NCBI RefSeq assembly: GCF_003641205.1
Contig: NZ_CP032762.1
Location: forward strand, 868,001-932,000
From: Rhodococcus sp. P1Y
Lineage (GTDB): Bacteria > Actinomycetota > Actinomycetes > Mycobacteriales > Mycobacteriaceae
DNA: 64,000 nucleotides
Reading direction: 5' to 3'
The translations under genes were made by a program, and so were the position numbers. A model generated the notes under the pieces. That model had not been told where the DNA came from. It made no database searches and saw nothing but the letters and a program-made list of their open reading frames with translations. Below, one piece after another: positions 9,142 to 51,483 of the stretch (its first letter is position 1; every line of letters begins with the position of its first letter).

Positions 9142-9248
9142 GAGGCAAGCCTATGACGTGTCGAGGCCCGCTCCGAACCGTCCGCTGATTTCGCAGGTCA
9201 AGCCCACCTCGTGTACCCTCCAAGGGTTGCTGACGCAACGACCCTCCT

Positions 9249-9294: not shown

Positions 9295-9302
9295 GAGGTC
9301 TT

Positions 9303-9590: not shown

Positions 9591-9649
9591 TTGTCGTTGC
9601 TCGCCTCTAGGCTGGCATCAACAAAGACTTACCTACTGAAAGAGGAACC

Positions 9650-10201: not shown

Positions 10202-10244
10202 ATCCTTCGCGATCGAACAACGAAGATGTAACGGAGAAAGACCC

Positions 10245-10487: not shown

Positions 10488-10503
10488 AAAGGGGCGATCA
10501 ACT

Positions 10504-10959
10504 ATGAAGCTGATCCTCACCGCTGATGTAGACAACCTCGGTGCGCCTGGCGACACCGTAGAGGTCAAAGACGGATACGGTCGCAACTTCCTGCTGCCCC
10601 GCGGATTGGCCATTGCGGCTACCCGTGGCGCTCAGAAGCAGGTCGAAGGCATCCGCCGCGCTCAGGAAGCTCGTGCCGTCCGCGGCCTCGAGCACGCCAA
10701 CGAGCTCAAGCAGGCCATCGAAGGACTCGAGTCCGTGTCGCTGTCGGTCAAGACCGCAGGCGACGCGGGCAAGCTGTTCGGCTCGGTCACGGCCTCGGAC
10801 GTTGCTGCTGCCCTCAAGGCTGCAGGCGGACCGGTCGTCGACAAGCGCAGCATCGAGCTGCCGAAGGCTCACATCAAGGCAACAGGCAAGCACGACGTCG
10901 TCGTGAACCTGCACCCCGATGTGACTGCGAAGTTCAAGCTGGAGGTCGTCGGAAGCTGA
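10504..10959 (+). CDS. rplI: 50S ribosomal protein L9
   Basis: A 151-residue L9: N-terminal RNA-binding domain [20 protein letters not shown] with [13 protein letters not shown], a long connecting helix, and the C-terminal domain ([34 protein letters not shown]). The start is preceded by GAAAGGGGCGATCAACT. It is the last gene of the rpsF operon and is followed by a strong terminator. Both globular domains are present at normal length. Confidence 0.97.
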
Positions 10960-11015
10960 TAGTCGGCTTCCGGACGACTGCAGTCCGATCTGGGCCTTTG
11001 GCCCGTTACGGCTCG

Positions 11016-11054
11016 AAAAAAGCCTTACGAACTCTGGTTCGTGAGGCTTTTTTC
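11016..11054 (+). terminator. Rho-independent terminator of the rpsF-rplI operon
   Basis: The arms 11016-11032 (AAAAAAGCCTTACGAAC) and 11037-11053 pair over 17 bp with a single G-T wobble, around a TCTG loop. The A-run before and T-run after make it a bidirectional-looking intrinsic terminator. It lies 57 bp after the rplI stop. Confidence 0.93.
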
Positions 11055-11240
11055 GTGTCTTGTCACAAAAAATGATCCCCCGCAACAGGTTTCGTTTGTG
11101 AAGCATGTCTCTTGAACGCCAAGTCGAGGTTAGTTTGCGTACCCTTTAACGAGGGGCGACACGAACACGCAGACAAGACGCGTGCGAGAACATTCACGAC
11201 TACCGACCGACCAGACGCCTAGACGCCCGGAGGACCTGCC

Positions 11241-14293: not shown

Positions 14294-14486
14294 GGCCGGT
14301 TTGTGACTGGAGACGAGACCACCTAACGTCCCTCCAGCGTGTCTCCACTGCCCGATCGGGGGTCTTGGGCGGCAGGCGATATTCGACCTCGCTGGGGTGT
14401 CGGATGCGAGGGGTACAACTTGTTTCAGTACGCGTCCGAGCGCTCGACGGTCGCGATTCCGACGGGGAAAGGACGGTCGACTTCAC

Positions 14487-16658
14487 GTGGCAGTTGTGGA
14501 CGATCGAGGACAGTCGGACTACTCCTCCGAACCACCCCCTAGCGAGGCCCCCGGTGAAGACTTCGGCCGTCAGCCTCCACAGGACATGGCTGCCGAACAG
14601 TCCGTACTGGGCGGCATGCTCCTGAGCAAGGACGCCATCGCCGACGTCCTCGAAGTCCTCCGTCCCGGCGACTTCTACCGACCGGCCCACCAGAGCGTGT
14701 ACGACGCGATCCTTGACCTCTACAGCCGCGGTGAGCCCGCCGACCCCGTGACGGTGTCCGCTGAGCTCGACCGCCGTGGTGATCTCAAGAGGATCGGCGG
14801 ACCTCCGTACCTGATCACTCTCACTCAGACGGTCCCGACGGCAGCGAACGCCGGCTACTACGCAGAGATCGTCGCGGAAAAGTCCATTCTGCGCAGGCTC
14901 GTGCAGGCCGGCACGCGCATCGTGCAGTTCGGATACGCAGGATCCGACGGGCAGGACGTCGCCGAGGTCGTCGACCGCGCACAGGCCGAGGTCTACGAGG
15001 TCACCGAGCGTCGAACGTCCGAGGACTTCCTTCCTCTCGAAGAACTCCTGCAACCGACGATGGACGAGATCGACTCGATCGCCAGCCGCGGCGGCATCTC
15101 GCTCGGTGTGCCCACGGGCTTCGCCGAACTCGACGAGATCACCAACGGACTTCACCCAGGTCAGATGATCATTGTCGCGGCGAGGCCTGGCGTGGGTAAG
15201 GCACTGGCACTGGATACGCCGCTACCGACGCCCGACGGCTGGACCACGATGGGTGAAGTCGCAGTCGGTGACCATCTCATCGACGCACACGGCATGCCGA
15301 CGCGTGTCGTCGCTGCAACGGACGTGATGATCGACCGTCCCTGCTACGAGGTCGAGTTTTCCGATGGCACCGTCATTGTCGCCGACGCTCAGCACCAATG
15401 GCTCACCACGCGGTGTGATGAATCTGCAGTGTCTACCACGGAGAACCTTGCGGCGAGCGAAGGTCACTCGGTATGCAACGTCGCTGCTCTACAGTTTCCC
15501 GAAGCAGATTTGCCCGTGCCCGCCTACGTCACCGGTGTCGCCCTGGGTGGTGGTCTCGAGGGCGCGGACTGCGCTATCGCCGCTCGGATCGAAGTGCAGT
15601 TCGATGCAATTCCGCGCCTGTACCTTCGATCGTCCGAGGCTCAGCGACGAGACCTGCTGGCGGGACTGCTCGATGCATGCGGCCGTATCGGTGCGGACGG
15701 TTCGATCGCGGTTCCTGCTCTCGACGGTCTACCGGAGTTGGTCGTCGGTCTTGGAATGGTGTGGACCGGTTCGTCGATCCTGACGGACGACAGTATTTTC
15801 ACAATCGACCAAAAAAGGTTGCTACACAAAGAACTCCGTGTCGGGGCTGATTCGGCGACAGACCGCCGAATAGTCGCAGTTCGGCAAGTCGCATCAGTGC
15901 CGGTTCGCTGCGTCGAGGTCGACAATGCCGAACACCTATACCTTGCAAGCGAATCGATGGTGCCGACGCACAACTCGACGCTGTCGATGGACTTCATGCG
16001 GTCCTGCTCGATCAAGCACGGTATGCCCAGCGTCATTTTCTCTCTGGAAATGAGTCGTACCGAGATCGTGATGCGCCTGCTGTCGGCGGAGGCGAAGATC
16101 AAGCTCGGTGACATGCGTTCGGGGAAGATGACCGATGACGACTGGACCAGGCTTGCCCGTCGTATGAGCGAGATCAGTGAGGCGCCGCTGTTCGTCGACG
16201 ACTCCCCCAACCTGACGATGATGGAGATCCGCGCCAAGGCGCGACGGTTGAAGCAGCGCAACGGACTCAAACTCATTGTGGTGGACTACCTTCAGCTGAT
16301 GTCCTCGGGCAAGAAGGTGGAATCCAGGCAGCAGGAAGTCTCGGACTTCTCCCGTCAGCTCAAGCTGTTGGCCAAGGAACTCGAATGCCCGGTGGTCGCG
16401 GTGTGCCAGCTCAACCGTGGACCCGAGCAGCGAACCGACAAGAAGCCGATGGTGTCGGACCTTCGTGAGTCCGGATCATTGGAGCAGGACGCCGACATGG
16501 TCATCCTGCTGCACCGCCCCGACGCCATCGAGCGAGACGACCCGAGAGGTGGCGAGGCCGACCTCATCCTCGGCAAGCACCGTAACGGTCCTACCGCCAC
16601 CATCACGGTCGCCCATCAGCTGCATCTGTCGAGATTTGTGGACATGGCGCGAGGCTGA
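14487..16658 (+). CDS. dnaB: Replicative DNA helicase DnaB with an in-frame intein
   Basis: A 723-residue precursor. GTG 14487 (VAVVDDRGQ) is preferred because mycobacterial DnaB begins MAVVDD; an open frame from 14397 would add 30 Arg-rich residues. The N-terminal domain (about 35-140: QPPQDMAAEQSVLGGMLLSKD) is followed by a RecA-like helicase domain. The Walker A loop ARPGVGK (to residue 238) is interrupted by a 258-residue intein (239-496), and resumes STLSMDFM. Later motifs include SVIFSLEMSRTEIVMRLLSAEA, LIVVDYLQLM and CQLNRGPEQR. The mature enzyme would be 465 residues, the normal size. As the insertion splits the ATP-binding site, the helicase must be inactive until splicing. The gene has a long, motif-rich upstream region. 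Confidence 0.96.
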   Translation: MAVVDDRGQSDYSSEPPPSEAPGEDFGRQPPQDMAAEQSVLGGMLLSKDAIADVLEVLRPGDFYRPAHQSVYDAILDLYSRGEPADPVTVSAELDRRGDLKRIGGPPYLITLTQTVPTAANAGYYAEIVAEKSILRRLVQAGTRIVQFGYAGSDGQDVAEVVDRAQAEVYEVTERRTSEDFLPLEELLQPTMDEIDSIASRGGISLGVPTGFAELDEITNGLHPGQMIIVAARPGVGKALALDTPLPTPDGWTTMGEVAVGDHLIDAHGMPTRVVAATDVMIDRPCYEVEFSDGTVIVADAQHQWLTTRCDESAVSTTENLAASEGHSVCNVAALQFPEADLPVPAYVTGVALGGGLEGADCAIAARIEVQFDAIPRLYLRSSEAQRRDLLAGLLDACGRIGADGSIAVPALDGLPELVVGLGMVWTGSSILTDDSIFTIDQKRLLHKELRVGADSATDRRIVAVRQVASVPVRCVEVDNAEHLYLASESMVPTHNSTLSMDFMRSCSIKHGMPSVIFSLEMSRTEIVMRLLSAEAKIKLGDMRSGKMTDDDWTRLARRMSEISEAPLFVDDSPNLTMMEIRAKARRLKQRNGLKLIVVDYLQLMSSGKKVESRQQEVSDFSRQLKLLAKELECPVVAVCQLNRGPEQRTDKKPMVSDLRESGSLEQDADMVILLHRPDAIERDDPRGGEADLILGKHRNGPTATITVAHQLHLSRFVDMARG
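15201..15974 (+). other. Class 3 mini-intein inside the DnaB P-loop
   Basis: The insert of 258 codons lies between GVGK and STLS. It begins with Ala instead of Cys/Ser (ALALDTPLPTPDGW) and ends VPTHN before a Ser extein residue. Block B reads DAQHQWLTT, block F VRCVEVDN, block G PTHN: the Trp, Cys and Thr are in the positions of the WCT triplet that defines class 3 inteins, which splice through the internal Cys. A degenerate LAGLIDADG-like stretch (LLAGLLDACGRIGADG) near the middle is the remnant of a homing endonuclease; two full motifs do not fit, so homing is probably lost. Mycobacterial P-loop DnaB inteins of this class are reported to respond to oxidation of the catalytic Cys. Confidence 0.9.
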
Positions 16659-39363: not shown

Positions 39364-40536
39364 GTGACCACACTCGAGGCGAAGGTCAACGCACGCGAGA
39401 CACTCGGTGCCAGGCGTTCGGGTCGGCATCGGCGCAGCTGGCTTTCCCAGGGCTCGGCGGCGTTCTCGGATTGGTTTCATGCCCCGCACGATTACTCGTG
39501 GATCGTTCAACATCGTTCGGTTCGACACCTGCATCCGGTTATTCGGGGAGTCTTCTGCGCCGCGACGCTGATCTACGCCCTGACGTCGGCAATCATGATG
39601 TTCAGTCCCCGCGGTCCCCAGGGGCTGGAGGCGCGAGCCTGGGTGTGTTTCATGCTGGTCGTCCAGCTGGGCGTCGCGTACGTCCTACTCACCTGTCCGG
39701 TGCCGAACAAGCTGGGTTTCGTTGCTTTCGGAATCTTCGGTGACGTAGGTCTTGCATCGGTGCTTGTCTGCTACGACGCGACCGCGGCAACGATGGGCAG
39801 TGCCTTGTTCGTCGTCACCGGTGCCTACTGCATCTTCTTCCTCAGTCCTCGCTGGATGGTGGCGCACCTGCTCTTCGCGTGCGGGTTCGTCGTGTTCTCG
39901 GCTTGGCGGGGTTGGTCCACCTCCGGCGAGCATCCTGCGACCACTCTTGCAGTCCTGACCGTGATCCTCACAGCTGTTGCCGGTGTACCGGTCTTCGCAC
40001 ACATTGCATGGACTGCCATCGGAGGAGATGCTCGCCGCTCGGCGCGAGACCCGTTGACCGGTTTGCTGAACAGACGCGGACTGGATTCCGCCGTTCTCGA
40101 TCTGTGGGACGCCGCGGTTGTCCGAAGCGAGTCGATTGCGGTCGCGATGGTCGACGTCGACAAGTTCAAAGCGGTCAACGACATCCACGGACACGACGCA
40201 GGTGATCGCGTCTTGATCAACATCGCCCGCAGGCTCGAAGGCGTCGTCGGTTCCTGCGGGGTCGCTGCGCGAACTGGCGGGGAGGAGTTCGTCGTGGTGA
40301 TGACGGGCGAGCGGACGGCCGTCGAATTCAGGATGGTCCAGGCCCTGTCCGTTGTTCACGACGAGAGCGACGAGGTGCCCATCACGGCAAGCTTCGGAGT
40401 GACCGTCCTCGAATCCGATTCGGTGCTGCGGTCGGCCGGCCACTCGATCGTCGGTCGGATGCTCAGGTCGTCCGACGCCATGATGTACCGGTCCAAGGCT
40501 GCCGGAGGTAACAGAATCTCCGTCGCTTCTCTGTGA
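39364..40536 (+). CDS. Membrane GGDEF diguanylate cyclase
   Basis: A 390-residue protein. About six membrane helices (about 60-220) form an uncharacterised sensory domain, followed by a GGDEF domain (about 228-390): ARDPLTGLLNRRGLDSA, VAMVDVDKFKAVNDIHGHDAGD and RTGGEEFVVV (GGEEF at residues 305-309, catalytically competent in the family). No RxxD inhibitory site was seen at the usual spot. It should make cyclic di-GMP from GTP at the inner face of the membrane. GTG 39364 follows TTGGGGG. It precedes the PucR-like and EAL genes on the same strand, giving a small c-di-GMP locus. Confidence 0.9.
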   Translation: MTTLEAKVNARETLGARRSGRHRRSWLSQGSAAFSDWFHAPHDYSWIVQHRSVRHLHPVIRGVFCAATLIYALTSAIMMFSPRGPQGLEARAWVCFMLVVQLGVAYVLLTCPVPNKLGFVAFGIFGDVGLASVLVCYDATAATMGSALFVVTGAYCIFFLSPRWMVAHLLFACGFVVFSAWRGWSTSGEHPATTLAVLTVILTAVAGVPVFAHIAWTAIGGDARRSARDPLTGLLNRRGLDSAVLDLWDAAVVRSESIAVAMVDVDKFKAVNDIHGHDAGDRVLINIARRLEGVVGSCGVAARTGGEEFVVVMTGERTAVEFRMVQALSVVHDESDEVPITASFGVTVLESDSVLRSAGHSIVGRMLRSSDAMMYRSKAAGGNRISVASL

Positions 40537-40657
40537 GACTTCGTCAAAACAAACTTACAGTTGGTTTAAGGCCGAGAAATACGCCCGATAGTTTGATTTG
40601 TGCGCTACCTTTCTCGGGCAGGGATTTCAGCGACTGTGTGGAAGGGGCGGAGGTCGT

Positions 40658-41917
40658 ATGGCAACAACGATGGCGTCGAAGGATCCGAGGGTGTCCGCAG
40701 ATCCGACGGAGGGTCTGAGTCTGGGTGGTCAGCCCGCGTCGCATCGATTGCGCGACGTGCGGGAAACGACGAAGAGTCTGGTCGATCACGTACTCGACAC
40801 CACGGAATATCGAGAGCTGACCGCTGACCGCGGGCGCGAAATCGTCACCGACGTCACTGCCGAATGCGTCGCATTGGCGGCCGACGTACTCGACAGCGGA
40901 ATTCAACCTGCAGCCGAGGATCTGGCGAGCCTACGTAGAACGGCGGCGAAATGGGCACGGGCGGGTGTACCTCTAGCGCCCATTCAGCATGCATTTCACG
41001 AGGGGTTCTCCGTCGGACTCCGCATGGTCGCCGGATCCGCAGTGGACGGTGAGCACGCAGCGCTCGTGGACGGGGCAGTACTGATGTTCGGCCTGCTCGA
41101 CGTCGTGTCCGAAGCCGTGTCCTCCGCGTATCTCGACGAATACAAGGCCGTCGCCGTCCAAGGCCATGATCAGGCCCACGCAGTCGTGACGGCTCTGCTC
41201 GCCGGCGAGTCGCACGCGGGTGCAGTCGCCGAACGGCACGGCACGGAGCTGGCCGACGGGTACGAAGTCCTCGCAGTGCACTTTCCACCACACCCAGACG
41301 AAACCGGCGTACCGAGCTCGCGCGAAACCGCTGCGGGCCGCAAACTCCAATCGATACTGGTTGCGCTGTCGGACTTCTGCGCACCCGCGCTTCCGCTGGC
41401 GATCCTCAGTCCGTCCGGTGGCACGATCCTGATCCCGGATGCGACGCCCACGACGGCAGGCAGCCTGGTCGCACGCCTCAGCGAGGCAGGTGGGGTGCCG
41501 GTATTCGCGGCGGCCGCGACGGCATCGCCCGCGCGCATCCCCGACGCGGCCGACAACGTCTACGAACTACTCCGGCTCGTGCTGCGTCTCGGTTACCGAC
41601 CTGACGTGTATCGGATCTCCGATCTGGCATTGGAATTTCAGATTGCGCGGCCGGGTGTGGGTCGACGCCATCTGAAGAAGATCCTCGACCCGCTGCGCCG
41701 AATCCCCGACCTGCTCCCCACGTTGGAAGCGTTCGTCTCCACCGAGGCCAATCGCAAGAAGGCCGCAACGCAACTCGTGGTTCATCCGAACACCGTCGAC
41801 TATCGACTCAAGCGGATCGAGCAGATCACGGGGATCGACCCGATGAAATCGTCGGGGCTCCGATCGCTTCATGCGGCTTTGATCGCCGATTCACTCGACC
41901 CCGAGAAGTCCGTGTGA
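40658..41917 (+). CDS. PucR/CdaR-family transcriptional regulator
   Basis: A 419-residue regulator. The middle part (RRTAAKWARAGVPLAPIQHAFHEGFSVG split) matches the PucR-associated helical domain and a GGDEF-like degenerate region (about 200-300). The C-terminal HTH_30 (TLEAFVSTEANRKKAATQL, VHPNTVDYRLKRIEQITG) is the PucR signature. ATG 40658 has GGAGG 4 bases upstream. Its stop overlaps the EAL gene by 4 bp, so the regulator and the phosphodiesterase are translated together. It may control the flanking c-di-GMP genes. The ligand is unknown. Confidence 0.9.
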   Translation: MATTMASKDPRVSADPTEGLSLGGQPASHRLRDVRETTKSLVDHVLDTTEYRELTADRGREIVTDVTAECVALAADVLDSGIQPAAEDLASLRRTAAKWARAGVPLAPIQHAFHEGFSVGLRMVAGSAVDGEHAALVDGAVLMFGLLDVVSEAVSSAYLDEYKAVAVQGHDQAHAVVTALLAGESHAGAVAERHGTELADGYEVLAVHFPPHPDETGVPSSRETAAGRKLQSILVALSDFCAPALPLAILSPSGGTILIPDATPTTAGSLVARLSEAGGVPVFAAAATASPARIPDAADNVYELLRLVLRLGYRPDVYRISDLALEFQIARPGVGRRHLKKILDPLRRIPDLLPTLEAFVSTEANRKKAATQLVVHPNTVDYRLKRIEQITGIDPMKSSGLRSLHAALIADSLDPEKSV

Positions 41918-42666
41918 GCGCGACACGCATTGCCCCGGTCACCTCGATCGCCGCACGAGCCGCGCTCAATGCAATCGACGCAATGGTCCCGCGTTTCCAG
42001 CCGGTGGTGTCCCTGGTCTCGGGCGACATCGTCGGAATCGAGGCGTTGGCGCGGTGGCCTACGGTCATCGGTGTCGACCCGGCCGAGGTCTTCGCGCTCG
42101 CTCGGGCGAAGGGTGTGGTGTCCGATATCGACTTCGCGTGTCGCACCGCAGCGGTCAAGGAGGCACGATCGGCCAAGCTGACCGACGGATTGGCGCTCTA
42201 TCTGAACTATGAACCGTCGGGCATTGCCAACCAGGCCCGGAACAACGCACATCTCGATGCACTCCAGTGCGAAGCCGACGTCGTTCTCGAGATCACCGAG
42301 CGGGGGCTGGACGGTGACCGAGAGAGCTTGCGCTCGTTGGTGAGTTCGGCACGGCAGCGGGGATTCTCGATTGCGTTGGACGACGTCGGGTCGAATGCCG
42401 CCACGCTGAGGGCGCTGCCGGTGGTTCGGCCGGACATCGTCAAGCTCGACGCGTCGATACTTCGTCGTCCCCACTCGCTTCACACTGCGCGTGTGCTGTT
42501 CTCGGTTCGCCGATATGTGGCCACCACCGGCGCGGTGGTTCTCGCCGAGGGCATCGAGTCCGAGCGGGATCGCGCCAAGGCGATCGAATGGGGAGCAACC
42601 CTCGGACAGGGTTGGTTGTTCGGCGCGGCAGCGACCGGCGCCGACGTGCGGATGACGATCGGCTGA
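41914..42666 (+). CDS. EAL-domain protein (probable cyclic-di-GMP phosphodiesterase)
   Basis: A 250-residue stand-alone EAL domain. The motifs are IEALARW (Glu43, EAL), LNYEPS (Asn of the metal site), VVLEITERG, FSIALDDVGSNAATL (Asp-Asp retained, DDFG changed to DDVG), PDIVKLDAS and LAEGIES. Most metal and catalytic residues are in place, so it may hydrolyse c-di-GMP, although the loop-6 change could weaken dimer control. GTG 41914 overlaps the PucR-like stop. It has no sensor domain. It opposes the GGDEF enzyme two genes upstream. Confidence 0.88.
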   Translation: MSATRIAPVTSIAARAALNAIDAMVPRFQPVVSLVSGDIVGIEALARWPTVIGVDPAEVFALARAKGVVSDIDFACRTAAVKEARSAKLTDGLALYLNYEPSGIANQARNNAHLDALQCEADVVLEITERGLDGDRESLRSLVSSARQRGFSIALDDVGSNAATLRALPVVRPDIVKLDASILRRPHSLHTARVLFSVRRYVATTGAVVLAEGIESERDRAKAIEWGATLGQGWLFGAAATGADVRMTIG

Positions 42667-42679: not shown

Positions 42680-42707
42680 GGCGTCAGGCGTCAGGCGTCA
42701 GGCGTCA
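42680..42707. repeat. Heptamer GGCGTCA repeated four times
   Basis: Four exact head-to-tail copies of GGCGTCA occupy 42680-42707. The last copy carries the stop codon of the minus-strand DUF998 gene. The array lies between two convergent stops, so copy-number change would have little effect on protein. It is a likely strain-variable tract. Confidence 0.9.
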
Positions 42708-43490
42708 GAGACGGGCCGGATCGGAGCTGGGAACGAGCGGGGTGACGAGTCCTGCGTCCGGCTTCGTATCAGCCGGCCGAAACCGGAATCCGGGAAAGCG
42801 GACCCAGCCGAAATCGAACCGTCGGAGCACTGTTCGTCGGGCCAGCGCGAGCAGAACCGCGGCGCCGGTGACTGCCATCCACGCAGGCATCGGGTAGAGG
42901 GCCAGCCGCTCGCCGAGCCCGAAGTGCAGGGTCTGCGCCAGCATCAGAACGGCACCCACGACGCCGACCGTCGCACACAGGGCCGACCACAGGGCCACCA
43001 CCCGGTTCGTACTCCACAGGTGCCACGCGATCAGGGCGAGCACGACGTGCCGCGCCACGAACCCGGGCAGCACCGCCGCCCAATGCACGATCGTCCCGTC
43101 GTTGGCGGGGAACAGTCCGGTCGCCGCAGTACTGACGGCGATGACCACGGCCAGCGCGAGTATCCACCTCTTGGAACGCCCGCTCCTGATGTGTCGGTGC
43201 AGGAAGAACGCACCCACCAGAGTCAAGCCACCGAGTGCGACGAACGTCGAGTTCATGACGTCGTGCATCGGCGAACACGCACCCACTTCGCATGTTGTAA
43301 CGCCAAGGGAACTGATCGAGTTCTGCGCAAAGCTGTAGGGAGTGTGCCAGGCCGCTGCCGTGAACAGTTCCGCAAGCAAGTACGCAAAGCTCAGAATCCA
43401 TGCGGTGCCTGCTGCAGCATGGCGCAGGTTGTGTGCCGTGGTCGGTGAGGTGATGGCGTGATCTTTCTGTAGAACCGGTGATCCTGACAC
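42705..43490 (-). CDS. DUF998 family membrane protein
   Basis: A 261-residue protein with six or seven membrane helices, starting near AGTAWILSFAYLLAELF and with SISSLGVTTCEVGACSPMHDVMNSTFVALGGLTLVGAF split across helix 2-3, characteristic of DUF998 proteins. No enzymatic role is established. GTG 43490 is a best guess; a long open frame upstream overlaps the OleA-like gene in antisense and is rejected. The gene is divergent from the Ole-like operon with about 145 bp between and may share its control region. Confidence 0.72.
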   Translation of the reverse strand: MSGSPVLQKDHAITSPTTAHNLRHAAAGTAWILSFAYLLAELFTAAAWHTPYSFAQNSISSLGVTTCEVGACSPMHDVMNSTFVALGGLTLVGAFFLHRHIRSGRSKRWILALAVVIAVSTAATGLFPANDGTIVHWAAVLPGFVARHVVLALIAWHLWSTNRVVALWSALCATVGVVGAVLMLAQTLHFGLGERLALYPMPAWMAVTGAAVLLALARRTVLRRFDFGWVRFPGFRFRPADTKPDAGLVTPLVPSSDPARL

Positions 43491-43635
43491 TACGTGCTCA
43501 ACCTGAGAGCGAGTCCGTTTTGTCCGGCGAAATCTCAGGTCTGACTCTCGGATTCTGTGTATCCTCCGTTCCAACGTGTCCGGGGGACACCGAGGCGACA
43601 CCGGGGGGCGTCCAGACGTGGTTTGCCATGATGAA

Positions 43636-44676
43636 GTGACTTCGCGCGTGGAATCGATCGGGTCGTATCTGCCGTCGCGCATCGTCACCAACGACGAGCT
43701 CGTCGCAGGAATGGCACACCCACCGGGCTTGGACATACAGAAGGTCACCGGGATCGAGCGCCGCCGGGTGTACGACAGAGACGCGCAACCACCGGAAGAC
43801 TCGCTGAGCATGGCCTTGCGAGCCGCACGGACCGCTCTCGAACGATCGGAGTACGACGCAGCCGATCTCGATGTCATCGTCAGCTGCTCCATCACGAGGT
43901 TTCGTGACGGCGACACGCTGTGCTTCGAACCGTCGTTCGCGCTGAGCATCAAGAACGATCTGGGTGCTGAGCGCGCGATTCACTTCGACGTCTCGAACGC
44001 GTGCGCAGGAATGTTGACCGGAGTCCTCGTTGTCGACGCGATGATCCGCAGCGGTGCGGTCCGCCGAGGTCTGGTCGTTTCCGGTGAACGCATCACCCCG
44101 ATCGCCGAGACTGCCGTCATCGAGATTGCCGACAGGTACGACCCGCAGTTCGCGTCACTGACGGTCGGCGACGCCGCAGCCGCGGTAATTCTCGACAATC
44201 GCGGTACCGACGACGACAGAATCGAATACATCGAGTTGATGACCTGTTCCAAGTACTCCGACCTGTGTATCGGCACCGCAAGTGAGCAGGGGCCGAGAGT
44301 TGCGCTCTACACCGACAACCGGGCCATGCACAACGCCGATCGCTATCGTTTGTGGACCACCCGGCAGCGAGACTTTCTCGATAGCCGTGGATCGTCCTTT
44401 GCTGCAGAAGAATTCGACTTCATCGTCCATCACCAGTTCTCCAAACCCGCGGCCGACGTCATCAACGCGCTTGCGACACAGGAGTTCGATGCCGAGATTC
44501 CGACGAGTCTCGACGTGTTGACGGACTACGGCAATACCGCATCGACATCCCATTTCGTCGTCCTCGACCACTATCTGCGGCGTGGTGACATACCTGCCGG
44601 GTCGAAACTGCTTCTCGTGCCTGCGGCGTCGGGAGTCGTCGCCGGATACCTCTCTCTGACCCTCGGAGAGGTGTAA
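43636..44676 (+). CDS. OleA/KAS III-like condensing enzyme with intact triad (LstA/NltA-like)
   Basis: A 346-residue thiolase-fold enzyme of the FabH/OleA group. The catalytic Cys123 is in SNACAGML, His265 (or 266) in IVHHQF and Asn300 in DYGNTASTS, the KAS III triad. Glu98 sits in CFEPSFAL, resembling the OleA glutamate position. OleA condenses two acyl-CoAs to a beta-keto acid. It is first of seven tightly packed genes including OleD- and OleC-like products. The start is uncertain: GTG 43636 gives the common N-terminus VTSRVESIGSYLPS; a GTG at 43576 is open further upstream. A weak ribosome site precedes it. Confidence 0.85.
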   Translation: MTSRVESIGSYLPSRIVTNDELVAGMAHPPGLDIQKVTGIERRRVYDRDAQPPEDSLSMALRAARTALERSEYDAADLDVIVSCSITRFRDGDTLCFEPSFALSIKNDLGAERAIHFDVSNACAGMLTGVLVVDAMIRSGAVRRGLVVSGERITPIAETAVIEIADRYDPQFASLTVGDAAAAVILDNRGTDDDRIEYIELMTCSKYSDLCIGTASEQGPRVALYTDNRAMHNADRYRLWTTRQRDFLDSRGSSFAAEEFDFIVHHQFSKPAADVINALATQEFDAEIPTSLDVLTDYGNTASTSHFVVLDHYLRRGDIPAGSKLLLVPAASGVVAGYLSLTLGEV

Positions 44677-44679
44677 GCC

Positions 44680-45561
44680 GTGGGAGTCGTCATCGCTTCG
44701 ACCGCTACCGAGCCGATCCTCGCCAGTGGCATCGATGCAGCCGCCGTCGCAGTGCGGGAGGCACTGGATGGAGCTGGACTCGACCCTGCGCGGGTACACG
44801 CACTCATCAACGTCGGCGTCTACCGCGACTCGAACATCGTCGAACCCGCCGTTTCTGCGCTTGTCTCGAACAAGGCCGGGATCGGTCTCGAGTACTTCAC
44901 CGGTGCGGTGCCGACATTTTCGTTCGATCTCATGAACGGACCATGCGGATTTCTCAACGCAGTACAGGTGGCCACGTCCCTGCTGTCGACAGGCAGTGTC
45001 GCCAACGTGGTCATCTGCTCCGGAGACGTCCACCCGTCGATGACCCCGCAACCCCACGAGGTGTTCCCGATCGCCGGGATAGCCGCAGCGGTGGTGCTCG
45101 TCCAGGATGACACCGATGCGGGTTTCGGGGTGCTGCGCACCGATTCCGTGACCGGACCGGTCGAGACCGAGGGCGGGGTCACGATCTCGAAAGCCGGAAC
45201 CACAGGCCGGGCGTCGATCACCGTCACACGGTCGATCGACGGTGCCGCATCGGTCGCGTTGGCCGCATCCGTCGCCCGGAGTGCGGTCGAGTCCGCGCAA
45301 CTCGATCCAGCGGGCGTGGCTTTGATCGCGGGGTGTCCGTTCGATGGGTTCGGCGCCGAGGTCGGGGACATGCTCGGTGCAGGTGGCGTCGTCGTGCCGG
45401 AACATCAGGGGGATCCGCATACCTCGTCGCTGCAACTGGCCTATCAGCAGGCGATGAAAAATGAACGCCTAGTGGAATATCGAGATCTCGTCTTCGTAGC
45501 AGGCGGCGGCCCGACGGCTGCCGCAATCACGTACCGGCAGAAGATCGGGGTTCGGGTATGA
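44680..45561 (+). CDS. Degenerate OleA/KAS III-like partner (LstB/NltB-like)
   Basis: A 293-residue thiolase-like protein, shorter than its neighbour. Cys89 lies in MNGPCGFLN at the nucleophile position. The His and Asn regions are replaced (LIAGCPFDGFG; GDPHTSSLQL), so it is unlikely to work alone. Glu55 in IVEPAVSAL matches the position of the OleA glutamate that deprotonates the acyl chain. In the lipstatin and nocardiolactone pathways two OleA homologues act as a heterodimer, one giving Cys and the other Glu. GTG 44680 begins 3 bp after the first gene's stop, supporting equal expression. Confidence 0.8.
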   Translation: MGVVIASTATEPILASGIDAAAVAVREALDGAGLDPARVHALINVGVYRDSNIVEPAVSALVSNKAGIGLEYFTGAVPTFSFDLMNGPCGFLNAVQVATSLLSTGSVANVVICSGDVHPSMTPQPHEVFPIAGIAAAVVLVQDDTDAGFGVLRTDSVTGPVETEGGVTISKAGTTGRASITVTRSIDGAASVALAASVARSAVESAQLDPAGVALIAGCPFDGFGAEVGDMLGAGGVVVPEHQGDPHTSSLQLAYQQAMKNERLVEYRDLVFVAGGGPTAAAITYRQKIGVRV

Positions 45562-45815
45562 AGTGGATGCGCGTGATTCCAGTGCTCGGCTGGGTGTACT
45601 TGCTGTGGGGCGCGCAGGCTGTCACGCGCGGGCGACTTCCGGCGTCGCGCACGGTACGCAGCATCCTGGTGGTCGACGCGGCACTCAGTGTCGGAGCGCA
45701 CGCAGCCCAGATCCCTTCCGCGATACGCGCCGCGACTCAGCTCGGATACTCCGAGCGTCGAATCGCACTGATGACCATGGTATTCGGGGCGACCTGGTAT
45801 CGGACGCTGACGTGA
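45558..45815 (+). CDS. Small membrane protein in the Ole-like operon
   Basis: An 85-residue protein with one or two hydrophobic stretches (VIPVLGWVYLLWGAQ; SILVVDAALSVGAHAAQ) and a positive tail. ATG 45558 overlaps the preceding stop by 4 bp, and its stop overlaps the OleD-like GTG by 4 bp, so it is clearly part of the operon. No family was recognised. It might anchor the complex at the membrane or help lipid handling. Confidence 0.75.
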   Translation: MKWMRVIPVLGWVYLLWGAQAVTRGRLPASRTVRSILVVDAALSVGAHAAQIPSAIRAATQLGYSERRIALMTMVFGATWYRTLT

Positions 45816-46786
45816 AAGTGCTTGTCACCGGGGCCGGTGGATTCATCGGATCGAACGTCGTCCGCCATCTTCGTGATCAGGGGCACGACGTGCGAGCGGG
45901 AGTGCGAACGGCGGTGAATCCCGGCGAGGTCGCTGCGGAACTGGGTGACCGGCGAGGTCTGGACGCCGCATGCGACGGGGTCCAGACCGTTGTCCACGCC
46001 GCCGCGAGGCTCGGCCAGTTCGGGAGTCGCCGTCGATATTGGGAAGACAACGTCGACGGCACCCGACGGTTGCTGTCGGCGGCCGCTTCCTCGGGTGTGC
46101 AGCGCTTCGTATTCGTCTCGAGTCCCAGTGCGTTGATGAGCCCTGAAGACGGCGACCGATTCGGTATCGACGAGTCGATGCCGTACCCGAACCGGTTCCT
46201 CAACGCCTACTGCGAGACCAAGGCGGAGGCCGAACGGATCGTGTTGGACTCCAATGCAGATGGCTTCACGACGGTGGCTCTGCGGCCCAGGGCGGTGTGG
46301 GGGCCGGGCGACCGGCACGGTCCGGTTGCCAAGGTCATCGACCGAATGCGTGCGGGGACGATGCCAGATCTGAACCGCGGCCGTCAGGTGCATGTGAGCA
46401 TCTGCCACATCGACAACTTCGTATCTGCATGCGGCGCGGCGTTGCACGCCGACGCGCAAAAGATCGGCGGCCGTTCGTATTTCGTCGCCGACGACCGACC
46501 GGTCGAGCTAGGCGACGCGCTCGAAAGGCTGGCCGGCGCTCTGGGCCTCACTCCCCCGACTCGGACCGTGCCCGCTGTCATCCTGACGCCGGCACTCACG
46601 GCCATCGAAGCGATCTGGTCGATACCTGCAGTAGGCAACCGCGTCGACCCGCCGTTGTCGAAGTACTCGGTTGCGTTGCTGACACGATCGGCTACCTACG
46701 ACCTCAGTGCCGCGCGCCGAGATCTGAATTGGCAGCCACTCGTCGACTTCGATACCGCGCTGCAGGGGTTGGCGGCACATGAGTGA
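45812..46786 (+). CDS. OleD-like NAD(P)-dependent reductase/epimerase (extended SDR, 3-beta-HSD type)
   Basis: A 324-residue extended short-chain dehydrogenase. The cofactor loop is VKVLVTGAGGFIGSNVV; the active site is formed by the Ser in FVFVSSPSAL and Tyr/Lys of YCETK (YxxxK). VALRPRAVWGPGD is a typical NAD-epimerase/3-beta-HSD motif. OleD reduces the OleA product, a beta-keto acid, to a beta-hydroxy acid. The GTG overlaps the preceding stop; its stop overlaps the GT2 start by 8 bp. OleD identity is inferred from family plus neighbours with OleA and OleC features. Confidence 0.85.
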   Translation: MKVLVTGAGGFIGSNVVRHLRDQGHDVRAGVRTAVNPGEVAAELGDRRGLDAACDGVQTVVHAAARLGQFGSRRRYWEDNVDGTRRLLSAAASSGVQRFVFVSSPSALMSPEDGDRFGIDESMPYPNRFLNAYCETKAEAERIVLDSNADGFTTVALRPRAVWGPGDRHGPVAKVIDRMRAGTMPDLNRGRQVHVSICHIDNFVSACGAALHADAQKIGGRSYFVADDRPVELGDALERLAGALGLTPPTRTVPAVILTPALTAIEAIWSIPAVGNRVDPPLSKYSVALLTRSATYDLSAARRDLNWQPLVDFDTALQGLAAHE

Positions 46787-47534
46787 CGCACTGTGGGTGA
46801 TAATTCCGGCATACAATGAGGAAGCAGGCATTTCCGATACCCTCGGTGCGCTTGCAGCCCAGCAGGATTCCGACTTCACGCTGCTCGTGGTGGACAACGG
46901 GTCGACCGACGATACCTGTGCCACGATCGTCGATTTCGCCGAGCGGCATCCAGAGATGCGAATACACGTGCTTTCCGAGCCGGTCAAAGGCACCGGTGCA
47001 GCGGCGGATACCGGTATGCGTCACGCAATCGGCGAAGGAGCGGAATTGTTGGCTCGCACGGACGCGGACTGCCTACCGGCGCCGGACTGGACTGCTCAGG
47101 TCCGGTGCGGATTCGCGTCGGGACTACGTCTGCTGAGCGGTGAGCTTCGGCCCAGGACCGATGAAGGAGTCGGGCGCGCACAGCTCCTGGTGGTCCGGGC
47201 AGCAGTGGAACTGGCGTCGTTCGCGGGCAGGTACCGGTCGGGCAATCAGGATCCGTCCTACCTGGGTCCCTACATGATGACTCCGGGCTGCAACATGGCG
47301 ATCACCGCCGAGCTGTACATCGAGGCGGGTGGGTTCCCGCGTACTCGTATCGAAGATGTCCACGAGGACCGGGCACTCGTCAACGCCGTCCGTACCATCA
47401 CCACCGACTACGGACGTCGTCGGACGATGCGCGTGTACGGATCGCAACGCCGAGTGAAGGCGTGGGGGATCGTGAAAACCCTGCAGTGGTATGCCGATCA
47501 CAGGTATCGCCCCGAGCTCGTGGACATTCGATGA
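46779..47534 (+). CDS. Family 2 glycosyltransferase in the Ole-like operon
   Basis: A 251-residue GT-A fold transferase. Motifs: VIIPAYNEEAGISDTL (nucleotide end), VVDNGSTDDT, LLARTDADCLP (DxD-like metal site), MMTPGCNMAI and EDVHEDRALVN. No membrane helix is predicted, so it is cytoplasmic or peripheral. ATG 46779 lies inside the OleD-like gene end, and its stop overlaps the OleC-like start (ATGA). No known Ole or beta-lactone cluster described to me has a GT2, so it could add a sugar to the product. Confidence 0.88.
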   Translation: MSDALWVIIPAYNEEAGISDTLGALAAQQDSDFTLLVVDNGSTDDTCATIVDFAERHPEMRIHVLSEPVKGTGAAADTGMRHAIGEGAELLARTDADCLPAPDWTAQVRCGFASGLRLLSGELRPRTDEGVGRAQLLVVRAAVELASFAGRYRSGNQDPSYLGPYMMTPGCNMAITAELYIEAGGFPRTRIEDVHEDRALVNAVRTITTDYGRRRTMRVYGSQRRVKAWGIVKTLQWYADHRYRPELVDIR

Positions 47535-49054
47535 CCGGGTTGATGGAGTTGATCAGAGCGCACGCCGACGCCGCGGGTGACGCTCCCGCTGTCGCCTCCT
47601 CACCGGGAGAAACCTGGTCCTACCGCGACCTGGTGAGCCGAATCGACTCTGTTGCAGACTATCTCGTGCGTGTCGGACTACGTCCTGGGCAACGAATGCT
47701 GTTCTCCATCCGTCCGTCACCGAAGTCGATTGCTGTGGTCCTGGGGACGATTGCCGCCGGTGGATCGATCGTGTTCCTCGATCCAGGCATGGGCGAGAGT
47801 CTCTTTCGCAACCGAGTGTCCTCGATCGACCCCGCTTGGATCGCAGCGGAATCGATCCTGTACTCGGCCGCAGCGCCTGGTCCCCTCCGATATCTCACAC
47901 GCAAACGCGGACTTACGCTGCCTCGATTGAGCGAGATACGCGCACACCACATCCGATCGGGATGTTGGCTGCCGGGTGTGCCGCGCAAAGCCGTCGATGT
48001 CCGAAAGCTGTTGCATACCCAGACCGCCGCGCGAATATCGCCGAACCGGGACCCCGACACGGAAGCGCTCGTCGTCTTCACTTCCGGCACCACTGCCGAG
48101 CCGAAGGCCGTGGTGCATTCGGAGAGATCACTCGTTGCAGCGTTTCGGGCACTCGTGGAACGCGCCGAACTCGGCCGCGACTCCGTTGTGCACACGGAAC
48201 AAGCCATGATCGGCCTGCCCGCCCTGCTAGCAGGTGGGACGTGGAGCATTCCCAAGCACGGCCTGCTCTCGGGTGTGGACGAACGTGGGTTCCTGCGAAC
48301 GATCGGCGACGCGACACATACGTTCGTCGTTCCTGCTCGTCTTCCGAAAGTGTTGAGGCTTATCGAGTCCGGAGCGGCGACGGCACCTCGAGATCTGCGG
48401 CATCTCCTGCTCGGTGGGGCACCGGTGAACGCGGGGTTGCTGCGATCGGTTCGGAACGTACTACCGAACGTAGACGTCATGGCCATCTACGGGATGACCG
48501 AGATACTCCCCGTTGCCACGGTGTCGGCGGCAGACAAACTTGCCTTCGACGGTCCGGGTGATCTCGTCGGGACGCCCGTCACCGGTGTCGAGGTCCGCAT
48601 TGGAGACGACGGCGAGCTGCACTTGCGCGGGCCGAACCTGTGTACCGGGTACCTGGGATCGGACTCGATGACCGAGCACGCATCGGGGGATCTCGGCACG
48701 GTGGTGAACGGTCGAATTGTTCTGTCCGGCCGCAAGAAGGACATGTTCATCCGCGGTGAGACGAACATCTATCCGGGACTGTACGAGCCGGCCATCAGTT
48801 CGCTCCCCGGCGTCGACGGTTGTGCTTTCGTGGCCGTCGCCGACACTGTCGGCGACGAGCGGGTCACGCTCGCTCTCGTCACGGTCGACGCCACCGCGTT
48901 TGCCGAGGCGAGCCAGGCGGTGGCGTCGATCGTCGACCATGCGGCAATGCCCGATCGGATTGTGCGTGTCGACGCCATCCCCACATCGGGACGATCGATG
49001 AAGCCCGACCGTACGATGCTGGCCCGTCAGCTGGAGAGAGCAGGTTTGCTATGA
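47531..49054 (+). CDS. OleC-like adenylate-forming enzyme (beta-lactone synthetase candidate)
   Basis: A 507-residue ANL-superfamily enzyme. P-loop FTSGTTAEPK (about 183-192), YGMTEILPV (about 320, matching the TEALPV-type motif of OleC proteins), the hinge LSGRKKDMFIRGETNIYPG (about 400) and a C-terminal Lys in SGRSMKPDRT. OleC activates a beta-hydroxy acid with ATP and closes a beta-lactone. ATG 47531 overlaps the GT2 stop. A long upstream frame is rejected because it overlaps the GT2. An alternative is a fatty acyl-CoA ligase or AMP ligase; the TEILP motif plus neighbours favours OleC. Confidence 0.83.
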   Translation: MTGLMELIRAHADAAGDAPAVASSPGETWSYRDLVSRIDSVADYLVRVGLRPGQRMLFSIRPSPKSIAVVLGTIAAGGSIVFLDPGMGESLFRNRVSSIDPAWIAAESILYSAAAPGPLRYLTRKRGLTLPRLSEIRAHHIRSGCWLPGVPRKAVDVRKLLHTQTAARISPNRDPDTEALVVFTSGTTAEPKAVVHSERSLVAAFRALVERAELGRDSVVHTEQAMIGLPALLAGGTWSIPKHGLLSGVDERGFLRTIGDATHTFVVPARLPKVLRLIESGAATAPRDLRHLLLGGAPVNAGLLRSVRNVLPNVDVMAIYGMTEILPVATVSAADKLAFDGPGDLVGTPVTGVEVRIGDDGELHLRGPNLCTGYLGSDSMTEHASGDLGTVVNGRIVLSGRKKDMFIRGETNIYPGLYEPAISSLPGVDGCAFVAVADTVGDERVTLALVTVDATAFAEASQAVASIVDHAAMPDRIVRVDAIPTSGRSMKPDRTMLARQLERAGLL

Positions 49055-50283
49055 GTCTCACGTCGATCGTGGCCCCGTTTCGAACCGTCGAGAGTAGACA
49101 GGAACTGAAACTTCTGTTCCTCGCGCAACCGATCGTTCCTGTTGTGCTGCTCAGTGTTCGGCTGTTCGGCAAGATTCGCAAAGTCCCTGGACTCGGATGG
49201 GTCGTCACCGATCCACTTCTGGCGCGGCAGGTGTTCAACGATGCCAACCACTTCACCATCGTCGGTTTGGGCGGAGCTGGATTCTGGTGGAAGCAGGTTC
49301 TCGGCGAATGGGTACTGGAGCTGTTCGACGGCGTCGGCCATCACCGCATACGAACTGCGGTGCGAGATTTGTTCGCCGCTGACTTCACGAACCTTCTGAT
49401 CGAGCGGGCCGGCGGCGAGAGTTTTAGGTCCTTGGCCGAGGATCTAGCAGCAGGGAAGCAGGTCGACATCGTCGCGTGGTCTCGTGTGACGGTAGGCCGA
49501 GTCGTCGCCGATCTCGTCGGCATGGACAGCAACGACATCGCGGACACGTTCCCCGACGCGGACCCGTCGGACATCCCCGGGCTGTTTCGTCTGTTGAGCA
49601 AAGAAGGCGAGAACCTCGCCAACTATGCAATGGGAATCGGGTCGCCGGACATGACCGAGGAGGATATGGCGTCGTCGAGGCAGGTGGTGCACAGGATCAC
49701 CTCGATGGTGCCGCGCGCGTACGCGACCGCCGGAAGCGACACTGTGCTCGGACGCCTGCGTGACAGCGGTGTGAGCGAACAACATGCAGTGGGACTCACG
49801 GCGTTGATGGTGGTCGCGGGAACGCAAACCACGATCGCGACGATCGGAAGAATGGTTGCACTGCTGCATGATTCGGGCGAGCAGCACACGCTGCTCGCGG
49901 ATCCGAGTATTACCCCGGACACGGTACGGGAGTCTCTCCGGGTTACCAGCGCCGCGGCGGCAGTCGGACGGGGTGTCTCGCGGGACGTGGAAGTCGGCGG
50001 CAAGATGTTGAAAGAAGGAGACGAGGTCAAGATCTTCGTCTGGTCCATCAACAACGCGATCGGCCCGTTCAAGGCCGATCGCGCGTACGTGCCGGAGTTG
50101 AGGCAACTCTGGTTCAGTGGTGGTCGACACCTGTGTATCGGCGCGACGCTGGTGAACGTGGAACTGGCCCGTGTGCTCGGCGCTCTGATCGCCGACGGTC
50201 GGCCGTGGAGGATCGTCGAGCGCAAAGCACGGTCCCGCTTGTTGGTTCCCGGCTACGAAAAGTTGGTTATCGAGCTGGTCTGA
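49051..50283 (+). CDS. Cytochrome P450 in the Ole-like operon
   Basis: A 410-residue P450. The I-helix is VVAGTQTTIATIG, the ExxR is in ESLRVT, and the heme loop FSGGRHLCIGATLV gives Cys362 as the axial ligand. There is no transmembrane anchor, so it is a soluble class I type that needs ferredoxin. ATG 49051 overlaps the OleC-like stop. It probably oxidises the product or an intermediate. No ferredoxin or reductase gene is adjacent. Its end overlaps the convergent AmaP-like gene by 17 bp. Confidence 0.92.
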   Translation: MSLTSIVAPFRTVESRQELKLLFLAQPIVPVVLLSVRLFGKIRKVPGLGWVVTDPLLARQVFNDANHFTIVGLGGAGFWWKQVLGEWVLELFDGVGHHRIRTAVRDLFAADFTNLLIERAGGESFRSLAEDLAAGKQVDIVAWSRVTVGRVVADLVGMDSNDIADTFPDADPSDIPGLFRLLSKEGENLANYAMGIGSPDMTEEDMASSRQVVHRITSMVPRAYATAGSDTVLGRLRDSGVSEQHAVGLTALMVVAGTQTTIATIGRMVALLHDSGEQHTLLADPSITPDTVRESLRVTSAAAAVGRGVSRDVEVGGKMLKEGDEVKIFVWSINNAIGPFKADRAYVPELRQLWFSGGRHLCIGATLVNVELARVLGALIADGRPWRIVERKARSRLLVPGYEKLVIELV

Positions 50284-51142
50284 GATCGACCAGTACTTGA
50301 ACGTCCACTGCTAGACCGTCCAGAGCTCGCGCGCAGTCGTCTCGTAGGGCTGCCGCGGATTCGACGAGTTCCTCGTGGGTGATGTCGGAACCGTCGGTGT
50401 AACCCGAAATTCTGAGAACCCTGTTTTTCTTCAGTTGAAGCACTCGGCCTGTGGCGGAGGAGATTCCGGGTGCAGATTCGAACTGGGCTGCTGCATTGCC
50501 TGCAGCGGACACCAGGTCGACGGATGCGTGCTCGTCGCTCTCGCTGACCAAGCGTGCAGGCCCGCGCCGAGGGCGGTGCGCGTAGAGCCAGCGCAGGCCG
50601 ACGAGCAATGCAAGTACTGCGGCACCGGTCAGTGCCCACGGCCACCAGCTGTTCGACGCCCAGTCGGTGGGTGACCACGTCTCCACCGTGCGTCGTGCGT
50701 CGTGCACGGGGTCGGGGAGCTGGTCACGCTGCCACGCTGCGGCAGCCAAGCCGACTGCGATCAGTAGCGCGCCGACCAGAAACGTCGCGAGTCGGTCGAA
50801 GACGGACGCCCCAGCTCCGATCGAGGAGATTCGGGCGCGGCCCGGGCGACGACTGATCCACACGCCGTCCGATTCGGTTGGGCGGTGTGTCTTTCGTCGG
50901 GGAAGAAGCGTGAGCAGCACCAGGACCAGGCCGACCACAGCCGCAGCGATACCGGCGGGCAACATCCATCCCTGCGCAGTAGTCCCCATCAGGGTGTCGA
51001 TGGCTGGGGCGATCCAGGTTCCGCCGGTCAAGGCGCCGAACTCGATGAGCGCATCGCGGCCTGCGACCACTGCAAGTGCGCAGAGGGCCAGCGCCAGTAG
51101 CACCGCGACTGCCGTCGCTTTCGGTGCTGCCTTCGGGGTCAC
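50267..51142 (-). CDS. AmaP / DUF6286-like membrane anchor protein
   Basis: A 291-residue protein with four hydrophobic segments (VLLALALCALAVVAG, LPAGIAAAVVGLVLVLL, LVGALLIAVGLAAAAW, WALTGAAVLALLVGL). The cytoplasmic C-terminal part (LQLKKNRVLRISGYTDGSD) resembles the AmaP-like tail. AmaP anchors Asp23 at the membrane in Gram-positive envelope stress. GTG 51142 has AGGAGAG upstream and overlaps the Asp23 gene stop by 4 bp. It is last of the minus-strand Asp23 cluster. Confidence 0.78.
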   Translation of the reverse strand: MTPKAAPKATAVAVLLALALCALAVVAGRDALIEFGALTGGTWIAPAIDTLMGTTAQGWMLPAGIAAAVVGLVLVLLTLLPRRKTHRPTESDGVWISRRPGRARISSIGAGASVFDRLATFLVGALLIAVGLAAAAWQRDQLPDPVHDARRTVETWSPTDWASNSWWPWALTGAAVLALLVGLRWLYAHRPRRGPARLVSESDEHASVDLVSAAGNAAAQFESAPGISSATGRVLQLKKNRVLRISGYTDGSDITHEELVESAAALRDDCARALDGLAVDVQVLVDLRPAR

Positions 51143-51483
51143 TCGACTCTCCTGGGGTTCTTCGTGTTTCGTTCGGGCGCAACGTAGTGGATGCGTACGT
51201 CGATCGAATCGACGTCGAGACCACTGTTCTGGGAAAGATCCTCGGCCACGGCGACGCGGATGCGGCTGGCGACGTCGGCAATAGGCGTCGGCCATCGGGT
51301 GGCGGCCTCGACTGTCGCGCGGACGCGGCCATTCCGAATGTCGGCGTCGACTCGCGGCAGTGAGCGCGCGGTGATACCGCCCACGACCTGTTCGACGCCT
51401 GTCACACGGCCGGCGGCGATTTCGGCGATTCGCGTCACGGCTCGCTGGCGTACGTCGAGTGAGCCTCGTTCGCTATCGGTCAT
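51139..51483 (-). CDS. Asp23/Gls24 family envelope stress protein
   Basis: A 114-residue Asp23 domain: RAVTRIAEIAAGRVTGVEQV, VRATVEAATRWPTPIADVASRIR and LDVDSIDVRIHYV. ATG 51483 lies 11 bp within the preceding DUF2273-like gene, supporting coupled translation. Asp23 proteins form abundant membrane-proximal assemblies responding to alkaline or envelope stress. This is one of two clear Asp23 domains in the cluster, and a third more diverged one is adjacent. Confidence 0.88.
   Translation of the reverse strand: MTDSERGSLDVRQRAVTRIAEIAAGRVTGVEQVVGGITARSLPRVDADIRNGRVRATVEAATRWPTPIADVASRIRVAVAEDLSQNSGLDVDSIDVRIHYVAPERNTKNPRRVE

Follow-up and report, generated by a model that had tools for sequence, protein, structure and literature searches.

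The window analysed in this study is a stretch of 64,000 nucleotides from Rhodococcus sp. P1Y (contig NZ_CP032762.1, positions 868,001 to 932,000), and it contains a cluster of seven open reading frames (ORFs), which are arranged head to tail on the + strand at positions 43636-50283. A preliminary description of this DNA had proposed an Ole-like operon here, with seven same-strand genes that are separated by 3 bp or share 4-8 bp with the next gene. All seven ORFs were confirmed: the first two genes are separated by a 3-bp gap and the following junctions overlap by 4, 4, 8, 4 and 4 bp. The first gene, A1 (43636-44676), encodes a 3-ketoacyl-acyl carrier protein synthase III (KAS III) of the LstA-subunit type, which possesses the N- and C-terminal ACP_syn_III domains of Pfam, Cys123, His266, Asn300 and Glu98-Pro99. 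The product of A2 (44680-45561) is a short KAS III-like protein of the LstB-subunit type with the KAS III N domain only, in which Pro, Gly and Asp replace Cys, His and Asn and Glu55-Pro56 is kept. M (45558-45815) encodes a small, probably membrane protein of 85 amino acids (aa) without a Pfam family, and D (45812-46786) encodes an extended, OleD-like short-chain dehydrogenase/reductase (SDR) with a YCETK motif (Pfam 3Beta_HSD/Epimerase). These are followed by a family 2 glycosyltransferase gene, GT2 (46779-47534; Pfam Glycos_transf_2, D95-x-D97 and HEDR at 195), a class I adenylate-forming enzyme gene, ANL (47531-49054; Pfam AMP-binding), in which the YGMTEILPV motif noted previously was found, and a cytochrome P450 gene, P450 (49051-50283; Pfam p450, with FSGGRHLCIG, ESLR and AGTQTT). 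Pfam detected no acyl carrier protein (ACP), acyltransferase, thioesterase or nonribosomal peptide synthetase (NRPS) domain among the seven genes, and a sigma-70 promoter scan found no promoter.

Related loci were collected by a genome scan with ANL patterns as the search key, independent of GT2, and the best 80 of 107 relatives were kept; gene matches in these loci were obtained by tblastn with the seven queries. In all 80 loci, a GT2 gene is present about 0.7-2.2 kb upstream of the ANL gene. The preliminary description had regarded GT2 as an extra tailoring gene. Its presence was correct, but its importance was understated: besides this constant position, GT2 is the best conserved of the seven genes outside the genus, and in comparison with the second carrier within the genus (G006) A1 and P450 are closer. 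In ten relatives aligned, GT2 has 58-80% identity to the window. Between L011 and L014, GT2 is 74% identical and ANL is 57% identical. In a phylum sample of 396 genomes, with 3-6 candidates scored per genome, GT2 and ANL were each found in at least three genomes, and these were the same three, in each of which the two genes are neighbours; the window's genome is among the three, and 3/396 is a lower bound. Two further ANL relatives, G039 and G054 (40-45% identity, same order), have no adjacent GT2 and speak against a strict linkage: G039 has only a weak GT2 match 8.7 kb away, and transposases lie next door in G054. It should be mentioned that in the G054 locus (L190, about 7262-11885) the same-clade ANL (42%) stands beside two transposase genes, and no GT2 or KAS III match was found in that stretch. 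A fold search with the GT2 model matched sugar transferases of many kinds; because these matches are generic GT-A matches only, assignment of the donor and acceptor from the fold was abandoned.

The 80 loci were typed by two rules: a match to A2, or a match to A1 above 45%, defines type I, and a match to a second kind of P450 defines type II. Type I comprises 25 loci from Nocardia and Segniliparus, which have the design of the window: the order A1-A2-(M)-(D)-GT2-ANL is repeated in them. Type II comprises 52 loci (Streptomyces, Lentzea, Arthrobacter, Microbacteriaceae, Cellulosimicrobium and others), with GT2 55-70% and ANL 41-51% identical to those of the window. In contrast to the window, these loci have one distant KAS III (24-31%, found in 39), another P450 between GT2 and ANL and an SDR (29-39%, found in 50) downstream, and tblastn gave no A2 or M match in any of the 52. 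The 13 type II loci without an A1 match were counted as misses; some are short contigs and others are perhaps too distant for tblastn. Three loci (L029, L031 and L048) fit neither type.

We compared the window with loci resembling the lipstatin (lst) and nocardiolactone (nlt) clusters, which they presumably are. In five lst-like Streptomyces loci, A1 is 52-57% and A2 36-40% identical to the window, and M (39-42%) and D (46-49%) were found in four, the fifth being a short contig. A further ANL-type match, a putative NRPS, is present in four of the five. In the nlt-like Nocardia loci L111, L112 and L137, A1 is 56-57%, A2 39-43% and D 47-49% identical, and in the more distant nlt-like loci L113-L115 the values are 43-52%, 34-38% and 46-48%, respectively. 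By tblastn, neither GT2 nor P450 was matched in the five lst-like or the six nlt-like loci. An NltC-like locus and a GT2-ANL cluster are both present in five Nocardia genomes that were read.

The two OleA/KAS III-like proteins of the preliminary description proved, by Pfam and by their residues, to be in an LstA/LstB arrangement. The residues reported for LstA are C128, H271 and N305, and LstB possesses an essential Glu, E60 (PMC12141560). Among 71 aligned A1 rows (the window, 24 type I, six nlt-like, five lst-like and 35 type II), Cys, His and Asn are invariant, and 69 rows have the Glu. None of the 36 A2 rows retains the triad, and every one retains Glu-Pro. When A2 was compared with PDB sequences, OleA-type chains ranked best, and Glu55 falls on their Glu-Pro. 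In one of these, an OleA chain of 358 residues, Glu55 is aligned with residue 117, as counted along the printed alignment, and residue 117 is the essential glutamate of OleA (PMC7064751). Furthermore, the predicted model of A2 (mean predicted local distance difference test score 86) has a KAS III fold, with FabH chains first among the fold matches and OleA also matched. Thus, judged by their residues, A1 and A2 match the published LstA/LstB design, namely the triad in one subunit and, in the other, loss of the triad with retention of the essential Glu; for LstB, the comparison is with residue E60 as reported in PMC12141560. We therefore predict that A1 and A2 form a heterodimer, which would condense two acyl-CoAs. 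In the A1 tree, where the other KAS rows are on very long branches, the window's A1 is placed in the type I group (96/90), nested among the nlt-like and lst-like A1 proteins and apart from the single KAS III of type II.

The ANL is related to OleC but lies outside the OleC family. The LstC-like and NltC-like ANLs belong to this family (550 and 605 bits, respectively, with PRK09274), whereas the window's ANL scores 140.6 bits with PRK09274 (cut-off 478) and 73 bits with OleC-Xan (cut-off 900). The OleC-Xan cut-off was reached in none of the 8 and none of the 80 genomes searched; therefore, it is too strict for actinobacteria and the score gap is what counts. In the 80 genomes, which are from the family of an Arthrobacter, matches that span the greater part of the OleC-Xan model reach 234-318 bits, and ordinary ANLs stay at or below 133 bits. 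In the window's genome, 29 other matches outrank the ANL, the best with 119 bits, and many of them are domains of the same long proteins. Three trees were made from subsets of 67, 67 and 61 rows. The first contained only three groups and was unable to tell sisters; own-genome ANLs were added in the second, and five long rows and one duplicate were removed in the third. The window's ANL belongs to a separate, long-stemmed clade (100/100), which is sister to OleC and NltC/LstC. These three groups lie together on one side of a branch (100/98) in the tree with 27 other ANLs, and the same was observed with 33 others. As the root of these trees is not known, "sister" is meant relative to the ANLs sampled. 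One row (L009_g), first taken as a generic ANL, fell with OleC in the tree with 33 others and was relabelled in the tree with 27. Twelve alignment columns, including DxGxG at 84-88 and L326 of YGMTEILP, are common to the window's ANL and the beta-lactone synthetases and rare in other ANLs; L326 is found in 100% of 23 beta-lactone-synthetase rows and in 0% of the 27 others. These marks, like those at the A8 and A10 motifs described below, are drawn from the rows compared here.

Two simple identities were rejected on these grounds. The ANL is not OleC itself, as shown by the profile scores and its separate clade; thus, "OleC-like" in the preliminary description holds as far as relationship in the tree is concerned and does not hold as a family assignment. 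The ANL was also rejected as an ordinary acyl-CoA synthetase. The preliminary description had named grouping with acyl-CoA synthetases and not with OleC as a finding that would overturn it; the tree with 27 other ANLs places the clade next to OleC/LstC/NltC, although outside the OleC clade. A joint grouping of the window's clade with ten ANL rows of one other branch was rejected in the approximately unbiased (AU) test with p 0.0035, a value that flatters because the ten rows were picked after the tree had been seen and only one of them (L121) is named by NCBIfam (fatty acyl-CoA synthetase). Taken by its sequence, the ANL is an OleC-related enzyme in a separate branch beside OleC/LstC/NltC, with shared marks and a different hinge. 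A1 sides with the nlt-like and lst-like loci (97/90) and ANL sides with type II (100/100), which is most simply explained if a GT2-ANL pair was combined with a front end of the LstAB type.

P450 is not a constant member of the cluster. In the type I loci, it adjoins 16 of the 25 clusters; where present, it is upstream and divergent, whereas in the window it is the last gene. In the nine other type I clusters, neither kind of cluster P450 was detected when the locus was examined to about 10 kb on each side, and the window-type P450 was missing genome-wide at E 1e-30, whereas three genomes that possess it gave 1e-116 or better. GT2 is retained in all nine. Therefore, P450 need not make the sugar acceptor, and a requirement for P450 at this step was ruled out for these nine. 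Moreover, the natural substrate of LstAB already bears a 3-hydroxyl group (PMC12141560), so an acceptor can exist without P450. In L080, a short stretch near 6940 resembles a P450 (55% identity, 47 bits) at the place where other Nocardia clusters hold P450; this may be a remnant. Regular-expression motif counts over the P450 and SDR relatives were unreliable (no I-helix motif in 38 of 50 P450 relatives) and were not used.

M homologues have 40-66% identity in eight other loci aligned. M is present in four of the five lst-like loci and one of the six nlt-like loci, there between ANL and D, and in 12 of the 25 type I clusters. The M family (window 45558-45815; relatives in L111 and L162-L165) shows the motifs P-x-x-GW-x-x-L, D-x-x-LS-x-x-x-HA-x-QIP and T-x-x-x-G-x-TW. 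D had been described as an OleD-like SDR, and its best NCBIfam model is indeed OleD NF042422 (205 bits, below the cut-off of 580). Eight type I clusters possess both M and D, four possess M alone, 13 possess neither and none possesses D alone. An OleD-like SDR is encoded elsewhere in 19 of 19 genomes that have the GT2-ANL cluster without an adjacent D, and at least one is present in all 27 Nocardia and Segniliparus genomes searched. Thus, D may act in trans; this is a weak hint, as the set contains no cluster-free Nocardia as a control.

The preliminary description stated that a set with both a glycosyltransferase and a P450 did not match described clusters. This is contradicted by Smith et al. 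2020 (PMC7064751), who described a region of Actinoplanes atraurantiacus that encodes OleA, a glycosyltransferase, OleC, a P450 and OleD, and predicted a glycosylated, hydroxylated beta-lactone. By domain content, the two regions are alike: OleA, a glycosyltransferase, an OleC-like ANL, a P450 and OleD/SDR are in one region. However, one OleA and no small membrane protein are given in that article, whereas in the window there are an LstA/LstB-type pair and M, and the genes are ordered differently. Among the genomes scanned, G522 and G701 have the order A-GT-ANL-P450-D (GT2 45-49%, ANL 33-35% identity to the window), and from its gene content this third arrangement appears to resemble the A. 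atraurantiacus region. Accordingly, Ole-type sets with a glycosyltransferase and a P450 are already in print as a prediction. As far as the literature was searched, the new features are the combination of an LstAB-type front end with this GT2-ANL pair, the position of the ANL in a sister clade and its hinge, the close linkage of GT2, the fact that P450 is dispensable, and the repeated occurrence of M.

The borders of the cluster were seen in related genomes. On the left, a DUF998 gene (42769-43401, - strand; the Pfam DUF998 match is on the longer ORF 42705-43952) is outside the cluster, and on the right there is a 342-aa gene without a Pfam family (50267-51295, - strand), which overlaps P450 tail to tail by 17 bp and is also outside. 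Among 37 genomes of the genus, GT2 is carried by two, the window's own and G006, in which the cluster is at the same place with collinear flanks. The right-flank gene was matched in 23 of the 37. In the five best right-flank matches after the two carriers (L194-L198), the flanks are collinear and nothing of the cluster lies between them; the DUF998 gene was seen at this empty site in four of the five, and in L194 the DUF998 and right-flank matches are only 136 bases apart. Because of this empty site, the seven genes look like a whole unit, a bounded accessory island, which would have been gained or lost as one block. Because the empty site bounds the seven genes in five congeners and the same order recurs in Nocardia and Segniliparus, the gene set is more than chance. 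GC content gave no signature of foreign origin (0.630 in the cluster and 0.627 in the surroundings). Adjoining the island, genes for GGDEF, PucR-type regulator and EAL proteins are in a row (39364-42666); PucR and EAL relatives are present in all five congeners read and GGDEF at that place in one. Elsewhere in the window, we observed a 1243-aa nSTAND1 NTPase with WD40 repeats (2686-6417), a fused sulfate-permease-type transporter and carbonic anhydrase domain (11241-13490), and a 753-aa DnaB (14397-16658), in which the C-terminal domain is matched in two stretches, which may point to an insert, for instance an intein.

Taken together, the cluster resembles a modified form of the pathways to lipstatin and nocardiolactone, and it probably condenses two fatty acids and attaches a sugar. 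In the proposed pathway, A1 and A2 would act as an LstAB-type heterodimer and convert two fatty acyl-CoAs to a 2-alkyl-3-keto acid, which D would convert to a 2-alkyl-3-hydroxy acid. ANL would then adenylate the carboxylate, and GT2 would transfer a sugar onto a hydroxyl group. P450 would perform an optional oxidation and M may be an accessory membrane protein. The side chain of lipstatin is formyl-leucine, and we propose that the product is a glycosylated beta-lactone, a relative of lipstatin in which a sugar replaces formyl-leucine. What the sequence shows directly is the KAS III residues, the gene set, the borders of the island and the place of the ANL in the tree; each of the reactions is predicted from the genes, as are the sugar and the site to which it is attached, and this applies most of all to ring closure. 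We give the pathway as a whole a probability of about 0.45. The absence of ACP, acyltransferase, thioesterase and NRPS domains suits an intramolecular ring-closing enzyme, and was therefore counted in favor of a beta-lactone. Also counted in its favor were the residue pattern of A1 and A2, the relatives of A1, A2, D and M in nlt-like and lst-like loci, the 3-hydroxyl group on the LstAB substrate, the sister position of the ANL clade with its DxGxG and LP marks, the AU result, and GT2 next to ANL in 80 of 80 loci.

Several observations weigh against a beta-lactone. First, with the PRK09274 and OleC-Xan models, respectively, one NltC-like protein scores 604.8 and 507.4 bits, one LstC-like protein 550.4 and 479.8 bits, and one OleC of an OleBC-type fusion 380.2 and 318.1 bits, and the ANL, with 141 bits against 605, 550 and 380 with PRK09274, is below all three. 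Second, in 13 columns the ANL agrees with ordinary ANLs and departs from the beta-lactone synthetases; six of them (403-412) fall in the A8 hinge. This hinge is of the CoA-ligase type (GRxKD; GRKKDMFIRGETNIYP) and differs from that of the nine beta-lactone-synthetase rows read: at the same site, the NltC-like protein has GRKSQRLSTTAGPMFT and the OleBC-type protein has GRLGHILTTPSGLMTP. From the general mechanism of ANL enzymes, this difference would bear on the second half-reaction. The A10 motif is SGRSMKPDR in the window's ANL in contrast to DIRHNAKIGR (DIRHNxK-like) in the beta-lactone synthetases read. Third, if GT2 acts on the 3-hydroxyl group, no beta-lactone can be formed. Fourth, no product of such a cluster was found in the open-licence PubMed Central papers searched. 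Finally, OleA appears to be the only protein of the A. atraurantiacus set that was assayed (PMC7064751); it was active on a p-nitrophenyl ester, but the purified protein precipitated, and the small amount left in solution condensed none of the acyl-CoAs tried.

The best of the alternatives is a glycolipid without a beta-lactone ring. In this case, the front end would provide a mycolate-like 2-alkyl-3-hydroxy acid, GT2 would glycosylate it, perhaps at the 3-hydroxyl group, and ANL would be a CoA ligase or an acyl-AMP donor, giving a surfactant-like or envelope glycolipid. The CoA-ligase-type hinge and the 13 columns fit this idea. The retention of GT2 in the nine clusters without P450 also fits, so the acceptor may be the 3-hydroxyl group, and functionalised hydroxy acids (surfactants) have been given as a third outcome of OleA pathways (PMC7064751). 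However, the clade of the ANL was placed as sister to the beta-lactone synthetases and shares with them the twelve columns, and the island contains no gene for an acyl acceptor or a transferase. We regard the glycolipid as a serious but tentative possibility, roughly one chance in three, and lean towards the glycosylated beta-lactone. An ANL acting as a plain acyl-CoA ligase, which feeds activated fatty acids to A1 and A2 for a ketone or hydroxy-acid lipid, is unlikely: its hinge is canonical and its top NCBIfam model is, by a hair, a long-chain fatty-acid CoA ligase (141.5 bits against 140.6 for PRK09274), but its place beside OleC/LstC/NltC, its DxGxG and LP marks and the rejected joint clade with the ten rows of the branch of L121 do not agree with this function. 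An olefin (ole) operon with OleB encoded elsewhere is very improbable although OleA-, OleD- and OleC-like genes are together, as the seven genes include no alpha/beta-hydrolase (OleB; no search for it was made in the rest of the genome), no protein of the genome scores like an OleC (119 bits at most), and an LstAB-type pair is present rather than one OleA.

For the family as a whole, we give even odds to a wider proposal. The GT2-linked ANLs would be a separate branch beside the beta-lactone synthetases, which kept the CoA-ligase hinge and acts with GT2 to make a new class of lipids, either sugar-bearing beta-lactones or a glycosylated mycolate-like acid; in Nocardia, Segniliparus and the genus of the window, recombination would have united the pair with a front end of the LstAB type, and it would be functional without P450. 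With or without ring closure, the two-gene GT2-ANL pair can be used as a search key. Beta-lactones, lipstatin among them, serve as drugs and as probes of hydrolases. Should the ring be closed, sugar-bearing beta-lactones could be obtained from this clade, together with another kind of beta-lactone synthetase that is missed by the OleC model. Should it stay open, the clade illustrates the divergence of CoA ligases and ring-closing enzymes from a common stem, and the A8 hinge is a testable difference between them.

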